Source: Novosphingobium sp.
GTDB taxonomy: Bacteria; Pseudomonadota; Alphaproteobacteria; Sphingomonadales; Sphingomonadaceae
Direction: 5' to 3'
DNA: 64,000 nucleotides
Assembly: GCA_024236215.1 (NCBI GenBank)
Contig: JACKKX010000002.1
Coordinates: 1 to 64,000 of the forward strand
The notes under the pieces are model-generated. The model did no database searches. It was not told where the DNA came from and worked only from the letters and a program-made list of their open reading frames with translations. The position numbers and the translations under genes are program-made. Shown one piece after another: positions 15,408 through 20,040 of the stretch; the stretch's first letter is position 1; every line of letters starts with the position of its first letter.

Positions 15408-15584
15408 CTAGCCCGCCAGACCGCCGGGGCGGGAGAGGGCGAAATAGATCACGTAGAACCACGAAAACACGCCGTGCAGGATCGCCCAGAGGATCGACTT
15501 GTTGACGCTCCACGAGATCGTCACGGCAAGCGCCGAACCGAGGCCGATCCCGGCCTTGGCCGCGCCTCCCGCGCCGCAGCTCAC
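15408..15584 (-). CDS. 58-residue membrane protein at the end of the Psp operon
   Basis: The product begins with a Gly/Ala-rich stretch (SCGAGGAAKAGIGLG) followed by a hydrophobic region of about 33 residues containing SWSVNKSILWAIL and FSWFYVIYFAL, probably two short helices or a re-entrant hairpin. The GTG start at 15584 overlaps the upstream stop as GTGA, strong evidence of coupled translation. No named family is recognised. Being last in the operon and membrane-bound, it may be part of the envelope-stress complex. Confidence 0.72.
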   Translation of the reverse strand: MSCGAGGAAKAGIGLGSALAVTISWSVNKSILWAILHGVFSWFYVIYFALSRPGGLAG

Positions 15585-15814
15585 AGGTCAACTCCCGCAG
15601 CGATGGCTTCGAGCTTGCGGATCCGTTCCTTGAGGTCGGCAATCTCGATCCGCGCCGCACCGCTACCGGCGCCGCCCTCGATTTCGGGACGGTGCATTTC
15701 AAGCTCACGCAGCTTGAGCTTGAGCCAGCCCTGCCAGCCACGCAGCCCGGCGAGAGCAAGGATCGCCACAGCAACAAGCGAGGTGGCGGAAACGATCAGG
15801 TTTGCACTGTTCAC
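15581..15814 (-). CDS. Small membrane/coiled-coil protein, divergent PspB-like
   Basis: This 77-residue protein has an N-terminal membrane helix (about residues 5-24) and a cytoplasmic charged helix ending IADLKERIRKLEAIAAG. The KERIRKLE segment resembles the coiled-coil signature shared by the PspB-like proteins upstream, but this member lacks the IEALRD C-terminus. It overlaps the 58-aa gene by 4 nt. Assignment as PspB-like is inferred from architecture and neighbourhood. Confidence 0.7.
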   Translation of the reverse strand: MNSANLIVSATSLVAVAILALAGLRGWQGWLKLKLRELEMHRPEIEGGAGSGAARIEIADLKERIRKLEAIAAGVDL

Positions 15815-15841
15815 GGCGGTTACTCCTCTCCGGCCCGGCGC

Positions 15842-16120
15842 CTAACGGTCGCGCAGGCTTTCGATCTCGTCGGCGAGCGCACGGGTGGTGCGCCCATCGG
15901 TGGCAATGCGTTCGAGCACATGGACACGCTCGCGCAGGGCTTCGACTTCCTTTTGCAGCTCGGCCTCGCGCGGGCTCGGCTGGACCGGATCGAGCAGGGC
16001 CTGAGCGCCGCGCATGTGGCGGCGCCCGCTCCGGTCGGTTCCCGCCCTGATCCTGGCCATTTTGATTGAACCGAACGCTCCGATCGCGGCGATCACAACG
16101 AAAGTGGTTCCGATATCCAT
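15842..16120 (-). CDS. PspB-like small membrane/coiled-coil protein
   Basis: This 92-residue protein starts with a short hydrophobic helix (MDIGTTFVVIAAIGAFG), then a basic linker and a coiled coil with LRERVHVLERIATDG followed by LADEIESLRDR. The same signature occurs in the three genes upstream. E. coli PspB has the same layout (membrane helix, then an amphipathic R-rich helix with an RERIxxLE core), so this is read as a diverged PspB paralogue. It is in the pspA operon. Confidence 0.75.
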   Translation of the reverse strand: MDIGTTFVVIAAIGAFGSIKMARIRAGTDRSGRRHMRGAQALLDPVQPSPREAELQKEVEALRERVHVLERIATDGRTTRALADEIESLRDR

Positions 16121-16134
16121 CTTTCTCAGTTCCC

Positions 16135-16464
16135 TCAGTTGGTAGTCTTGTTGTCGCGCAATGCCTCGATCTGGTGGGTTAAGGCATAGCCGCTGTCGGT
16201 GACGATGCGCTCGACATTGGCGAGGCGGTCCTTGATAGAGCCAAGTTCAGCATGAAGCTGGGCGTTTTCCTGGGTCAGTAGGCGGATGCGCTCCTTTTCC
16301 TCGCTGCCCTGCGGATAGATCGGCTTGCCCCACGAGTTCTCGAGCGGGTAGCCGTTCCTGATCCGCATCCAGGTGGTGATCACCCAGCCGCCGACACCGA
16401 AGCCGGTGACTGCGACGACCATCGGGGCGATGTCGCCCAGTGCGGTCAGCACTTCGGGGCTCAT
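16135..16464 (-). CDS. PspB-like small membrane/coiled-coil protein
   Basis: This 109-residue protein has a membrane helix near residues 8-30 (MVVAVTGFGVGGWVITTWM), a linker with NSWGKPIYPQGSEEK, and a coiled coil with IKDRLANVERIVTDSG followed by LTHQIEALRDN. It overlaps its upstream neighbour by 4 nt (ATGA). The domain order and the ERIVTD...IEALRD signature place it in the same paralogous set as the flanking genes. Confidence 0.75.
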   Translation of the reverse strand: MSPEVLTALGDIAPMVVAVTGFGVGGWVITTWMRIRNGYPLENSWGKPIYPQGSEEKERIRLLTQENAQLHAELGSIKDRLANVERIVTDSGYALTHQIEALRDNKTTN

Positions 16465-16745
16465 TTGCGCAGATCCTCGATTTCCGCGGCGAGCCTGGTC
16501 GATCCTTCGGTGGCGATGCGCTCAAGCACTTTCACACGGTCCGCAAAATGGGAAAGCTGCTCGCGCAGTTCGGCATTTTCGGCGCGCAGCTGGGCAGTGT
16601 CGGCACTGTCGCGCGGGCCGGTCTTGCCGCCCCACTCGTCCTCCAGGGCATAGCCGTGGCGGGCGCGGATCCAGTTATTGACCAGCCATCCGCAAGTGGA
16701 AATGGCGATGATCGCGATGACGAATTCAGGGCTGCCCCAGCTCAT
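16461..16745 (-). CDS. PspB-like small membrane/coiled-coil protein
   Basis: This 94-residue protein has a membrane helix near residues 6-25, a linker containing DEWGGKTGPRDS that resembles the NSWGKP linker of the next gene, then FADRVKVLERIATEG and LAAEIEDLRK. Both ends overlap neighbours by 4 nt. This linker similarity suggests it and the 109-residue protein arose by a recent tandem duplication. Confidence 0.75.
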   Translation of the reverse strand: MSWGSPEFVIAIIAISTCGWLVNNWIRARHGYALEDEWGGKTGPRDSADTAQLRAENAELREQLSHFADRVKVLERIATEGSTRLAAEIEDLRK

Positions 16746-17032
16746 TTGCGCAGCTCCTCTTCGCGCCGGTCAAGCAAGGCCTCGACCTTGCGGGCATCGC
16801 GCAGCGCCTCGATCTGGGTGGCGACGTCATAGCCCTTGTCGGTAACGATCCGCTCGAGAACACGTACGCGTTCTTCCAGCTCGCTGTTGTTGGTGGCGTA
16901 CTGCGCGGCCTTTTCGGCGGCGGCCTTGATATGCAGCTCGGCCATCTTGCGCTGGTGCGCGGTCCAGATCGCGACGATCGGGATCGAAACGCCGATGATC
17001 GGGATCAGGAGGGCGATATTTCCGGCGGACAT
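16742..17032 (-). CDS. PspB-like small membrane/coiled-coil protein
   Basis: This 96-residue protein has an N-terminal membrane helix (IALLIPIIGVSIPIVAIW), a charged helix with AELHIKAAAEKAAQ, and the signature LEERVRVLERIVTDKG followed by VATQIEALRDARK. Of the extra copies it is closest in feel to canonical PspB. It lies 25 bp after pspC and overlaps the next gene by 4 nt. Confidence 0.75.
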   Translation of the reverse strand: MSAGNIALLIPIIGVSIPIVAIWTAHQRKMAELHIKAAAEKAAQYATNNSELEERVRVLERIVTDKGYDVATQIEALRDARKVEALLDRREEELRK

Positions 17033-17057: not shown

Positions 17058-17435
17058 TCAGCGCAGGCGATCGATTTCAGCCGAAAGCCGCGGGTTGGAA
17101 GTGACGTAGAAGGCTTCGACCTCGGCCAGGCGGCGGTCGATATCGCGGAACTGGGCGCGCACCTGCTTGGCGCTGCGGGCGGGCGACTGGCGCACCCCCT
17201 GCCAGAACTGCTGTTCGATCCGGTCGCCATAGAAGCTGGCGGGCTTCTTCGGGGCGAACATGCCGATCGCGAAATAGGCCAGCAGCGGTAGCCCCGAACC
17301 CATCAGCGTCAGTCCCACGGCGCCCAGCCGCAGCCACATCACGTCGATCCCGGTGTAGTCGGCAATACCGGCGCAGACGCCCAGGAACTTGCCGTTGACC
17401 TTGTCGCGGTAAAAGCGGGTGCGCGGGCTGTTCAC
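17058..17435 (-). CDS. pspC: Phage shock protein C homologue with C-terminal coiled-coil extension
   Basis: This 125-residue protein has a PspC domain (FYRDKVNGKFLGVCAGIADY, then DVMWLRLGAVGLTL and the second helix LLAYFAIGMFAPKK). A cytoplasmic extension ends with RDIDRRLAEVEAFYV and LSAEIDRLR, which echoes the coiled-coil tail of the PspB-like proteins. PspC and PspB form the inner-membrane sensor that relieves PspA inhibition of PspF. The start is GTG at 17435, overlapping the pspB stop (GTGA). Confidence 0.92.
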   Translation of the reverse strand: MNSPRTRFYRDKVNGKFLGVCAGIADYTGIDVMWLRLGAVGLTLMGSGLPLLAYFAIGMFAPKKPASFYGDRIEQQFWQGVRQSPARSAKQVRAQFRDIDRRLAEVEAFYVTSNPRLSAEIDRLR

Positions 17436-17749
17436 TTTGCAATCCTCCCCTTGAGCTGGCTCATCGTGCGCAGCTGTTCGATTTCCTCAAGTGCCACATT
17501 GTCGGTTGCGCGGTCGGGCAGCAGACGGCCCGGGCTGAACTCGGGATGATCGCTGGCAACCAGGCGTTCGACCGTGTCCATCCGCTCGTCGAGGCGGCGG
17601 GCCAGCTGGTGCAGCTCTTCGAGCAGCGCTTCGTCGTCGTTGGTCAGCGTGGCCGAAGTCTTCCACTTGGTGACATAGTGAAGGATGATCCACGGCATGC
17701 CGACAAAGATCGCCAGCACCGCGATCAGCGGGATAATCATCTCGTCCAT
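17432..17749 (-). CDS. pspB: Phage shock protein B homologue
   Basis: This 105-residue protein has a membrane helix near residues 5-27 (IPLIAVLAIFVGMPWIILHYV), then a coiled coil with LARRLDERMDTVERLVASDHPEFSPG, close to the PspB pattern of R-rich helix, LE core and a D.HP motif. It is longer than E. coli PspB (74 residues), with a tail ending in EEIEQLR. It is 4 bp downstream of pspA and overlaps pspC. Confidence 0.85.
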   Translation of the reverse strand: MDEMIIPLIAVLAIFVGMPWIILHYVTKWKTSATLTNDDEALLEELHQLARRLDERMDTVERLVASDHPEFSPGRLLPDRATDNVALEEIEQLRTMSQLKGRIAK

Positions 17750-17753
17750 CGGC

Positions 17754-18446
17754 TCAGTCTTCCTTCTTGGGTTCGTTCGCGGCGCTCAGCGCGCGCTTCA
17801 TTTCCTCGAGCTCCTCGTCGATCTTGTCGGCTCCGGCGAGCGCGGCGATCTCATCGGCAAGGCTGGGCTTTGCGGAGCCGTCTGCCAGGCTCAGCGCGTC
17901 GGCGCGGCCTTCGGCATAGTCGACCCGGCGCTCAAGCTGGTCGAAGCGCGCCATGGCATCGTCGACCCGCTCACTGGCCAGCAGCGTGCGCAGCTTGACG
18001 CGGTTTTCAGCGCTTTCCAGCCGCGCGGCGATTGCGCCCTGACGGGTGCGGGCCTCGCGCAGGCGGGTCTGGAGCTTTTCGATATCGACCTCGTAAGCGC
18101 GCAGCGCATCGTCGAGCACGGCGATTTCGGCCTTGAGCTGTTCGGCCATGTCGGCGGCCTTTTTCTTTTCGACCAGCGCCGCACGGGCCAGATCCTCGCG
18201 ATCCTTGGACAGCGCCAGCTGGGCCTTCTCGCCCCAGTCGGCCTGGAGCCGGTCAAGCTTGACGGTGTGGCGGTGCATTTCCTTCTGATCGGCGATGGTG
18301 CGGGCCGCGCTGGCGCGAACCTCGACCAGGGTTTCCTCCATCTCGAGGATGATCATCCGGATCATCTTCGCGGGATCGTCGGCCTTGTCGAGCAGATCGT
18401 TGAAATTGGCGGCGATAATGTCACGCGTGCGGCTGAAAATGCCCAT
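17754..18446 (-). CDS. pspA: Phage shock protein A
   Basis: PspA is an IM30/ESCRT-III-family peripheral membrane protein that binds damaged inner membrane and holds PspF inactive in the resting state. The 230-residue product begins MGIFSRTRDIIAANFNDLLDKADDP in the canonical manner and is helical throughout, with long charged heptad-like stretches. The start at 18446 follows GGAG at 8-nt spacing and matches family length. The same frame stays open back to GTG 18677, which would add a 77-residue Pro/Ser-rich N-terminal tail. It is the second gene of the sigma-54 operon. Confidence 0.93.
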   Translation of the reverse strand: MGIFSRTRDIIAANFNDLLDKADDPAKMIRMIILEMEETLVEVRASAARTIADQKEMHRHTVKLDRLQADWGEKAQLALSKDREDLARAALVEKKKAADMAEQLKAEIAVLDDALRAYEVDIEKLQTRLREARTRQGAIAARLESAENRVKLRTLLASERVDDAMARFDQLERRVDYAEGRADALSLADGSAKPSLADEIAALAGADKIDEELEEMKRALSAANEPKKED

Positions 18447-18685: not shown

Positions 18686-18847
18686 TCAGGCCTGCTGAGC
18701 CGCGACGCTGCCCTGCGAAAGGGCCAGCGTCGGGCTGGGCTGAAGCTGCTGGGCAAGGACGAAGAGGTTCATCGCCAGCATGGCGCCGACCGAAAGGGTG
18801 ATCGCCCGGTCAAGGCTGGTGGCGGGGTTGAGAAGCTTGTTGAGCAT
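18686..18847 (-). CDS. 53-residue single-helix membrane peptide heading the pspA operon
   Basis: The product starts MLNKLLNPATSLDRA, has one hydrophobic helix (about residues 15-33, LSVGAMLAMNLFVLA) and a short polar tail ending SVAAQQA. The ATG at 18847 is about 27 nt after the predicted sigma-54 transcription start, so it is the first gene of the Psp operon. No known family is recognised. Its size, order and layout parallel the 46-residue peptide of the second sigma-54 operon (5389-5529). A regulatory or membrane-stress role is inferred only from context. Confidence 0.68.
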   Translation of the reverse strand: MLNKLLNPATSLDRAITLSVGAMLAMNLFVLAQQLQPSPTLALSQGSVAAQQA

Positions 18848-18884
18848 GGTGTGCCTCGTGCGAAGTGCGTTTGTCCGGATATTC

Positions 18885-18899
18885 GCAAAGGCCGTGCCA
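18885..18899 (-). promoter_or_regulatory. Sigma-54 (-24/-12) promoter of the psp operon
   Basis: On the minus strand, TGGCACGGCCTTTGC is an exact match to TGGCACG-N4-TTGC. The -24 element is plus-strand 18894-18899 and the -12 element 18885-18888, predicting transcription from about 18874 toward the peptide gene at 18847. Location between divergent pspF and pspA agrees with the known E. coli arrangement. Confidence 0.88.
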
Positions 18900-18954
18900 A
18901 ATTGCCCAAGTGGCGCAATTTCGTGCCTTTCCGGGGAATTCGACCAGCGACATG

Positions 18955-19000
18955 TGGGAAGGAGTTCCCATGCTTGGGAAATTTCACTATATCTTGGGAA
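18955..19000. promoter_or_regulatory. Candidate PspF binding array (10-bp phased TGGGAA half-sites)
   Basis: Half-sites TGGGAA (18955-18960), TTCCCA (18965-18970), TGGGAA (18975-18980) and TGGGAA (18995-19000) start at offsets of 0, 10, 20 and 40 bp, so all lie on one face of the helix. Adjacent pairs form two perfect dyads, TGGGAA-N4-TTCCCA and TTCCCA-N4-TGGGAA. Relative to the predicted psp transcription start they lie at about -81 to -126, where PspF sites lie in E. coli. The array overlaps the pspF ribosome-binding site and start codon (18970), suggesting negative autoregulation. Confidence 0.7.
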
Positions 19001-20040
19001 TGGATCGCGGAACGCAATTCGTCGGCCAGTCGGGCGCCTTTTTGGATGCGGTGGAACGCGCCAGCCGCGCCGCGCCGATGCGCCGTCCGGTGCTGGTGAT
19101 CGGTGAGCGCGGCACCGGCAAGGAACTGATCGCCGAACGCCTCCACCGCCTCTCCGCCCGCTGGGGCGAGCCGCTGATCACGCTCAACTGTGCAGCCTTG
19201 CCGGAAACGCTGATCGAGGCGGAGCTTTTCGGTCATGAGCAGGGCGCCTTCACCGGCGCTACCAGAGCCCGCGCGGGCCGGTTCGAGGAAGCCGACAAAG
19301 GCACCTTGTTTCTCGACGAACTGGCCACGCTATCGATGGCCGCGCAGGAGCGCTTGCTCCGCGCGGTCGAATACGGCGAGGTGACGCGGATCGGCGCGTC
19401 GAAGCCTGTGCGGGTCGACGTGCGGATCGTGGCGGCCACCAACGAGGACCTTCCCGCGCTGGCCGAAGCGGGTAAATTCCGCGCCGACCTGCTCGACCGG
19501 CTGAGCTTCGAGGTTATCACGCTCCCCCCGCTGCGGGTGCGCGATGGCGATATTCCCGTGCTGGCCGACTATTTCGGGCGCCGCATGGGCACCGAACTGG
19601 GGTGGGAGCGCTGGCCAGGCTTTTCCGACCATGCGATGGCCGCGCTCGAGGAGCACCAATGGCCCGGCAACGTACGCGAACTGCGCAACGTGATCGAGCG
19701 CGCGGTCTATCGCTGGGACGATTGGGAACGGCCGATCGCGCACATCGTGTTCGATCCTTTTGAAAGCCCGTGGAAGCCGCTCCCGCCGGTCCATCCCGGC
19801 GAAGCGCAGACAGATGCTCCCGCCCGTATTCCCCAGGCCGCGCCGGCCGCGCGGCTCGATACCGTGGCCGATCTCAGGGCCGCGGTCGATGCGCACGAAA
19901 AGGCGATCCTCGAACAAGCGCTCGGGCGCCATCGCTACAACCAGCGTCAAACCGCCAAGGCGCTCAACCTCAGCTACGATCAGCTTCGCCATGCGATGAA
20001 GAAGCACGGGCTTAGCGACAGCCGGGTCGACCCGGCCTGA
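18970..20040 (+). CDS. pspF: PspF, sigma-54-dependent activator of the phage shock operon
   Basis: This 356-residue AAA+ activator lacks an N-terminal receiver domain, as PspF does. It shows Walker A GERGTGKELIAERLH, the sigma-54 contact loop GAFTGA, Walker B GTLFLDELA, the arginine-finger region FRADLLDRLSFEVI, and a C-terminal Fis-type helix-turn-helix (RYNQRQTAKALNLSYDQLRHAM). ATG 18970 has GGAAGGAG upstream; a second ATG at 19000 is possible and would follow the whole operator array. It is divergent from the operon it should activate, with PspA as its expected inhibitor. Confidence 0.94.
   Translation: MLGKFHYILGMDRGTQFVGQSGAFLDAVERASRAAPMRRPVLVIGERGTGKELIAERLHRLSARWGEPLITLNCAALPETLIEAELFGHEQGAFTGATRARAGRFEEADKGTLFLDELATLSMAAQERLLRAVEYGEVTRIGASKPVRVDVRIVAATNEDLPALAEAGKFRADLLDRLSFEVITLPPLRVRDGDIPVLADYFGRRMGTELGWERWPGFSDHAMAALEEHQWPGNVRELRNVIERAVYRWDDWERPIAHIVFDPFESPWKPLPPVHPGEAQTDAPARIPQAAPAARLDTVADLRAAVDAHEKAILEQALGRHRYNQRQTAKALNLSYDQLRHAMKKHGLSDSRVDPA

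Follow-up and report, generated by a model that had tools for sequence, protein, structure and literature searches.

A putative PspF enhancer that may enclose a leaderless pspF promoter across much of Sphingomonadales

We propose that the region immediately upstream of pspF acts as a composite element, in which PspF, a membrane-stress activator, would from its enhancer activate the divergent psp operon at a distance and block the predicted leaderless promoter of its own gene (probability roughly 0.7). In its full form, the proposal holds that in much of Sphingomonadales one stretch of about 46 bp would serve psp as its sigma-54 enhancer and at once be the sigma-70 core promoter of a pspF that is translated leaderless, with each occupancy amounting to occlusion; we judge its chances to be somewhat better than even. 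Negative autoregulation is already known in E. coli (PMC3709507), and the new part is the predicted merging of enhancer and leaderless promoter into one layout. Throughout, the window denotes the whole 64-kb stretch of DNA that was analyzed, and the features of its psp locus are collected in Table 1.

Table 1. Features of the psp locus in the window; the pspF promoter elements and both transcription start sites (TSS) are predictions.
Feature	Sequence	Coordinates	Strand	Remarks
UAS1	GTGG-GAAGGAGTT-CCCA	18954..18970	+	First TTGG-N9-CCAA unit
UAS2	TTGG-GAAATTTCA-CTAT	18974..18990	+	Second unit, 20 bp downstream; most conserved block
Third half-site	TTGG	18994..18997	+	Another 20 bp on; discriminator of predicted pspF promoter
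Predicted −35 of pspF	TTCCCA	18965..18970	+	Overlaps UAS1 right arm
Predicted −10 of pspF	TATATC	18988..18993	+	Overlaps UAS2 right arm; 17-nt spacer, 6-nt discriminator
Sigma-54 promoter of psp operon	TGGCACGGCCTTTGC	18885..18899	−	Exact match; TSS expected at ~18873
pspF		19000..20040	+	346 aa; predicted leaderless, +1 at A of ATG
Small protein, 53 aa, single TM	MLNKLLNPATSLDRAI... (protein)	18686..18847	−	Unannotated; first ORF after sigma-54 TSS, heads operon
pspA	MGIFSR start (protein)	17754..18446	−	TIGR02977, 275.2 bits (cut-off 242.95)
pspB		17432..17749	−	TIGR02976, PF06667
pspC		17058..17435	−	TIGR02978, PF04024

The locus can be classed as a probable PspF-dependent psp divergon, as it combines a pspF orthologue divergent to pspABC, a sigma-54 promoter together with an rpoN gene in the 3.08-Mb genome of the window strain, and E. 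coli-type UAS dyads upstream of pspA. All four gene products exceed their NCBIfam cut-offs, with PspF reaching 481.3 bits against TIGR02974 (cut-off 443.55; scanned from 18970) and sharing 50% identity with E. coli PspF, the C-terminal HTH included. In a family search, PspF was detected at E ≤ 1e-130 in 290 of 297 Sphingomonadales genomes. The 53-aa membrane protein at the head of the operon is a candidate for a new Psp component. The comparative set described below holds 162 candidate ORFs, and a profile made with 122 of these matched 132 (E < 1e-3), a crude pN/pS of 0.27 was obtained across 26 pairs, and no Pfam or NCBIfam match to the protein was returned at E ≤ 1. At the other end of the operon, five small ORFs lie in series 3′ of pspC (15581-17032, minus strand), each encoding an N-terminal hydrophobic stretch followed by a charged part. 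An LERIVTD-like motif occurs in four of the five, which are loosely alignable with PspB, and the two that were searched gave no Pfam match above cut-off.

Half-sites of the form TGGGAA/TTCCCA start at 18955 (+), 18965 (−), 18975 (+) and 18995 (+), exactly where an earlier, sequence-only reading of this DNA had placed a phased PspF operator array. The window is not rich in this hexamer (17 copies, 24 expected), yet the array accounts for four of the 17, and none of 60 simulated 64-kb sequences (first-order Markov) contained at least three half-site starts within 45 bp. With up to one mismatch allowed, the 3.08-Mb genome contains the palindrome TGGGAA-N4-TTCCCA twice and a reversed control pattern three times. 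The palindrome is thus not enriched genome-wide, and the clustering rather than the palindrome is the unusual feature. Inspection by eye recognized no psp-like context around the second genomic copy (L081).

The exact sigma-54 consensus named in that reading was also confirmed; it is the sole exact match in the window and one of ten in the genome (control, six). Standard consensus sequences were taken for sigma-54, Shine-Dalgarno (SD) and IHF sites. With the −12 element at 18885, we presume from the usual −12-to-TSS spacing that psp transcription starts near 18873, which puts the half-sites at about −82 to −127, in agreement with the distance first claimed for them. Among the ten exact sigma-54 sites, the psp site alone has a strong UAS match (25.1). 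The next-best UAS score, 13.0, belongs to a site (L246; G000:C1:445803) whose UAS-like sequence, GTGCGAAATTCCGCCAT, begins only 26 nt upstream.

To compare the array across the order, we assembled 211 pspF upstreams, consisting of the best 80 relatives, the best 30 of an order-wide search, 100 picked from the places found in that search to cover many genera, and the window. Removal of two without a pickable start and of ten duplicates left 199 distinct upstreams. These are not a random sample and the rows are related; moreover, the query against which the similarity of the best 80 relatives was ranked extended upstream as far as 18970. Conservation of the half-site phasing in other Sphingomonadales had been named as the check on the array, and the phasing is conserved. 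Matrix registration gave the consensus TTGCCAAnnnTTGGGAAATTTCACTATAnnTTGGnnATG, in which TTGG-N9-CCAA-N3 forms a 20-bp repeat present in two copies and followed by a third TTGG. TGGGAA, as originally described, is the version of this unit in the window strain; TGGGAA-N4-TTCCCA was replaced by TTGG-N9-CCAA as the true unit. The right arm of UAS1 reads CCAA in 96 of the 199 upstreams and CCCA, as in the window, in seven, while that of UAS2 reads CTAT in 93 and CCAA in 36. At the third half-site, T, T, G and G are found in 166, 160, 158 and 179 of the 199 aligned upstreams, and the motif is retained where the start codon shifts away (e.g., L162, L176). In one genus-level group of 23 genomes (L092-L094, L101, L113, L179 and relatives), the second dyad takes forms like TGGTGGGATTTGCCACCA.

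A further element, TTCGACGAACGACATG, lies at 18939-18954, directly beside UAS1. Its motif was drawn by eye from the 199 upstreams, of which 41 match at least 11 of its 16 positions (two when shuffled), 20-24 nt from the conserved block. It has eight genomic places at up to two mismatches, compared with three for the control.

The sequence comparisons lend good support to the view that the array is a PspF enhancer acting on the divergent sigma-54 promoter of psp, and with it to the suggestion that the array would activate the psp operon. A sigma-54 site scoring at least 6.8 of 8.3 accompanies the array in 199/199 upstreams, as opposed to 5/199 shuffled ones, and GG-N10-GC is present in 193. The distance from the array to the sigma-54 TSS is mostly 86-91 bp, with further classes at 77-79, 97-100, 106-111 and 130-132 bp; together these classes hold 194 of the 199, the remaining five lying at 18, 66, 83, 85 and 104 bp. 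A Rayleigh circular test at 10.5 bp gave z = 17.7 when applied to the 52 upstreams that fall outside the main mode, and 5.7 when each distinct value was counted once, with periods of 10.3-11 bp fitting about equally well. The distance class changed at least eight times on a FastTree protein tree. Distances stepped by about 10.5 bp are what a looping enhancer on one helix face predicts.

The enhancer interpretation also extends to E. coli, where the UAS2 matrix picked out TTAGTGTAATTCGCTAA with a score of 16.2 (15.4 for the opposite strand) and GTGGCGAATTTCATCAT with 11.6 in the pspF upstream region, dyads that we take to be the footprinted UASs. In 1000 shuffles, 99% of maxima fell below 12.9 and the highest reached 18.3, so that the second dyad is not significant by itself. 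We also took raw matrix scores for 18 genomes that belong to the same phylum but not to the order. In 16 of them, the top-scoring dyad in the 110 bp next to the pspF start reached at least 8; weak dyads were found in L266 (2.1) and L268 (7.5), and no pspF start was assigned in L284. These dyads often form 20-bp tandem pairs, at a varying distance from the pspF start. In E. coli and four of the 18, the downstream dyad reaches into the ATG, so contact between enhancer and pspF start is no novelty by itself.

Within the same array we predict a likely sigma-70 promoter for pspF, which the sequence-only reading, sound in its half-sites, overlooked. Relative to the codon homologous to the ATG at 19000, the ungapped columns of the 199 upstreams are conserved at −36 to −30, −26 to −17, −13 to −11 and −6 to −3. 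TTG occupies −36 to −34 in 162 (TTC in the window strain, a departure that counts against the promoter), TA occupies −12/−11 in 125, and both occur together in 104. Combined, the two features give TTGnnn-18-TAnnnn and, in the window, TTCCCA-17-TATATC, six bases before the ATG. Zymomonas mobilis is a member of Sphingomonadales. Its TSS-mapped sigma-A promoters follow the consensus TTGNNN/TANNNN with no conserved T−7, most often with a 17-bp spacer and a 6-bp discriminator, and 119 of 2,675 TSS-gene pairs are leaderless, according to the available part of PMC7566282. The −10/ATG geometry upstream of pspF is that of these mapped promoters, from which we predict +1 to be the A of the pspF ATG. In 111 of the 125 TA-bearing upstreams, the start codon follows the predicted +1 at a distance of 0-3 nt.

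No SD sequence was seen in the 12 nt before 19000 (TATATCTTGGGA). Under matrix registration, an SD-like motif precedes 3/166 short-spaced starts compared with 11/27 long-spaced ones, counts that come from related sequences, and three upstreams (L162, L176, L063) keep the TATA and third TTGG with an SD added behind. An SD would find little space beside the array in any case, so this argument for a leaderless pspF loses some of its weight. Among the long-spaced upstreams, an SD-like motif is present in 4/13 with TA and 7/14 without, a comparison that goes against the leaderless promoter. The tree-corrected test (129 proteins) was not significant, with a median sign-test p of 0.5 for six supported independent spacing pairs, in which the SD changed the same way in 2.3 and the opposite way in 0.1 on average.

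A different account of the region has pspF begin at 18970 and takes AAGGAG for its ribosome-binding site (RBS), both under the array (18961-18972), where PspF or RNA structure would limit translation. In the window strain this looks good, as AAGGAG stands 5 nt before an ATG that is in frame with 19000. The comparative evidence points instead to 19000 as the conserved start: among the 80 relatives the homologous codon is ATG in 69, GTG in nine and another codon in two, and the alignment of E. coli PspF places its first residue there. At −30, ATG is found in three of the 199 upstreams (the window, L169 and L197) and in one of 29 genus loci (L222), 15 of which are already within the 199, and 60 of the 199 have an in-frame stop within −30. 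The distance from array to start varies from 38 to 42, altering the frame. Compared with the nearest sister genome (G428, L216), the array (18953-19002) differs at 1 of 50 bp and the neighboring spacer at 8 of 53, and this single change, at 18972, turns the ATG into ATA. The start at 18970 was therefore rejected, and translational control at the array, with the start at 19000 and no supported RBS beneath it, is highly improbable.

Another possibility keeps the enhancer and the autorepression and moves the pspF promoter further upstream, giving a leadered mRNA translated without an SD from a start fixed by shared descent or intergenic packing. Of the 74 upstreams without TA at −12, 55 have the start in the same place, as do 19 of the 23 genomes in the genus-level group above, in which TA is present in none; a start kept in so many upstreams without TA suggests that something besides a promoter may account for the layout. 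A generic sigma-70 scan, which demands T−7, found no promoter at the array, and in Zymomonas about half of the leaderless units are served by an upstream promoter as well, as given in the available part of PMC7566282. Against this stands the conservation of TTG at −36 and TA at −12 beyond what the PspF dyad (TTGG, CCAA) explains. Furthermore, among starts 36-42 nt from the block, 0/111 with TA precede the predicted +1 compared with 6/55 without TA (p 0.001, relatedness ignored); outside that range, earlier starts occur in one TA-bearing upstream (L193, well before the predicted +1) and five without TA. We consider an upstream promoter unlikely on balance. That the repeats bind another regulator, their nearness to pspF being accidental, is scarcely credible: the TTCGACGAACGACATG element conserved beside the array in 41/199 upstreams suggests that another factor may bind nearby, but the matrix recognizes the dyads at the corresponding E. 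coli locus and the array is co-conserved with pspF and with a sigma-54 site at helical spacing.

In the composite element that we favor, two PspF dyads and a third half-site, 20 bp apart, would form the enhancer of the divergent sigma-54 operon. The sigma-70 promoter of pspF would occupy the same stretch, its −35 in the right arm of UAS1, its −10 in the right arm of UAS2 and its discriminator in the third half-site, with +1 on the A of the ATG and hence a leaderless mRNA. PspF bound to the array would touch the sigma-54 polymerase through a DNA loop and would shut the sigma-70 polymerase out of pspF, so that PspF would stay scarce. As the core promoter would lie wholly within the enhancer, binding of PspF and of sigma-70 polymerase is expected to be mutually exclusive, and pspF would be regulated at transcription rather than at the RBS. 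The sequence-only reading had the array limiting pspF translation or transcription; the transcriptional half remains plausible solely by analogy with E. coli (PMC3709507), and the translational half falls with the start codon.

If the model is correct, enhancer occupancy would directly set activator dosage, and pspF might remain translatable under stresses that favor leaderless mRNAs. It would be a compact case in which an enhancer and the promoter of its activator could not be bound simultaneously. The link between occupancy and dosage is addressable by changing single bases, and both leadered and leaderless forms exist among the natural variants. For one alphaproteobacterial order, the analysis also defines likely PspF sites at the level of a motif, and it corrects the pspF start.

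A search of one open-access collection returned no publication on PspF binding sites in Sphingomonadales, a result that speaks for that collection and not for print in general, and a search there for PspF together with leaderless surfaced only a Listeria bacteriocin paper. The Zymomonas promoter study does not mention sigma-54 enhancer overlap in its available part, and pspF appears zero times in its main text (PMC7566282). In E. coli, UAS-bound PspF activates the sigma-54 pspA promoter and represses sigma-70 transcription of pspF, with IHF assisting in psp control (available part of PMC3709507), and this feedback keeps PspF levels low (available part of PMC7229158). Inspection of the window by eye recognized no match to the IHF consensus between the UAS and the psp promoter. 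The locus resembles the E. coli pspF-pspA region in the divergent arrangement of pspF and a sigma-54 pspA operon, in an array that reaches the pspF start, in tandem N9 dyads 20 bp apart (at −35 and −15 from the ATG in E. coli) and in the distance from the sigma-54 TSS to the pspF ATG (127 bp, compared with about 126 bp read by eye in E. coli). The E. coli arms are TTAG/CTAA and GTGG/TCAT, whereas the Sphingomonadales unit is TTGG-N9-CCAA. The array in the window differs from that of E. coli in being set back from the ATG by about 11 bp more, in its third half-site and in containing a plausible sigma-70 promoter, spaced as for a leaderless mRNA. That promoter is predicted, whereas those of Zymomonas are TSS-mapped, and it shares with the leaderless promoters described in the available part of PMC7566282 the TTGNNN/TANNNN pattern, the spacer of 17, the lack of a conserved T−7 and the 6-bp discriminator.
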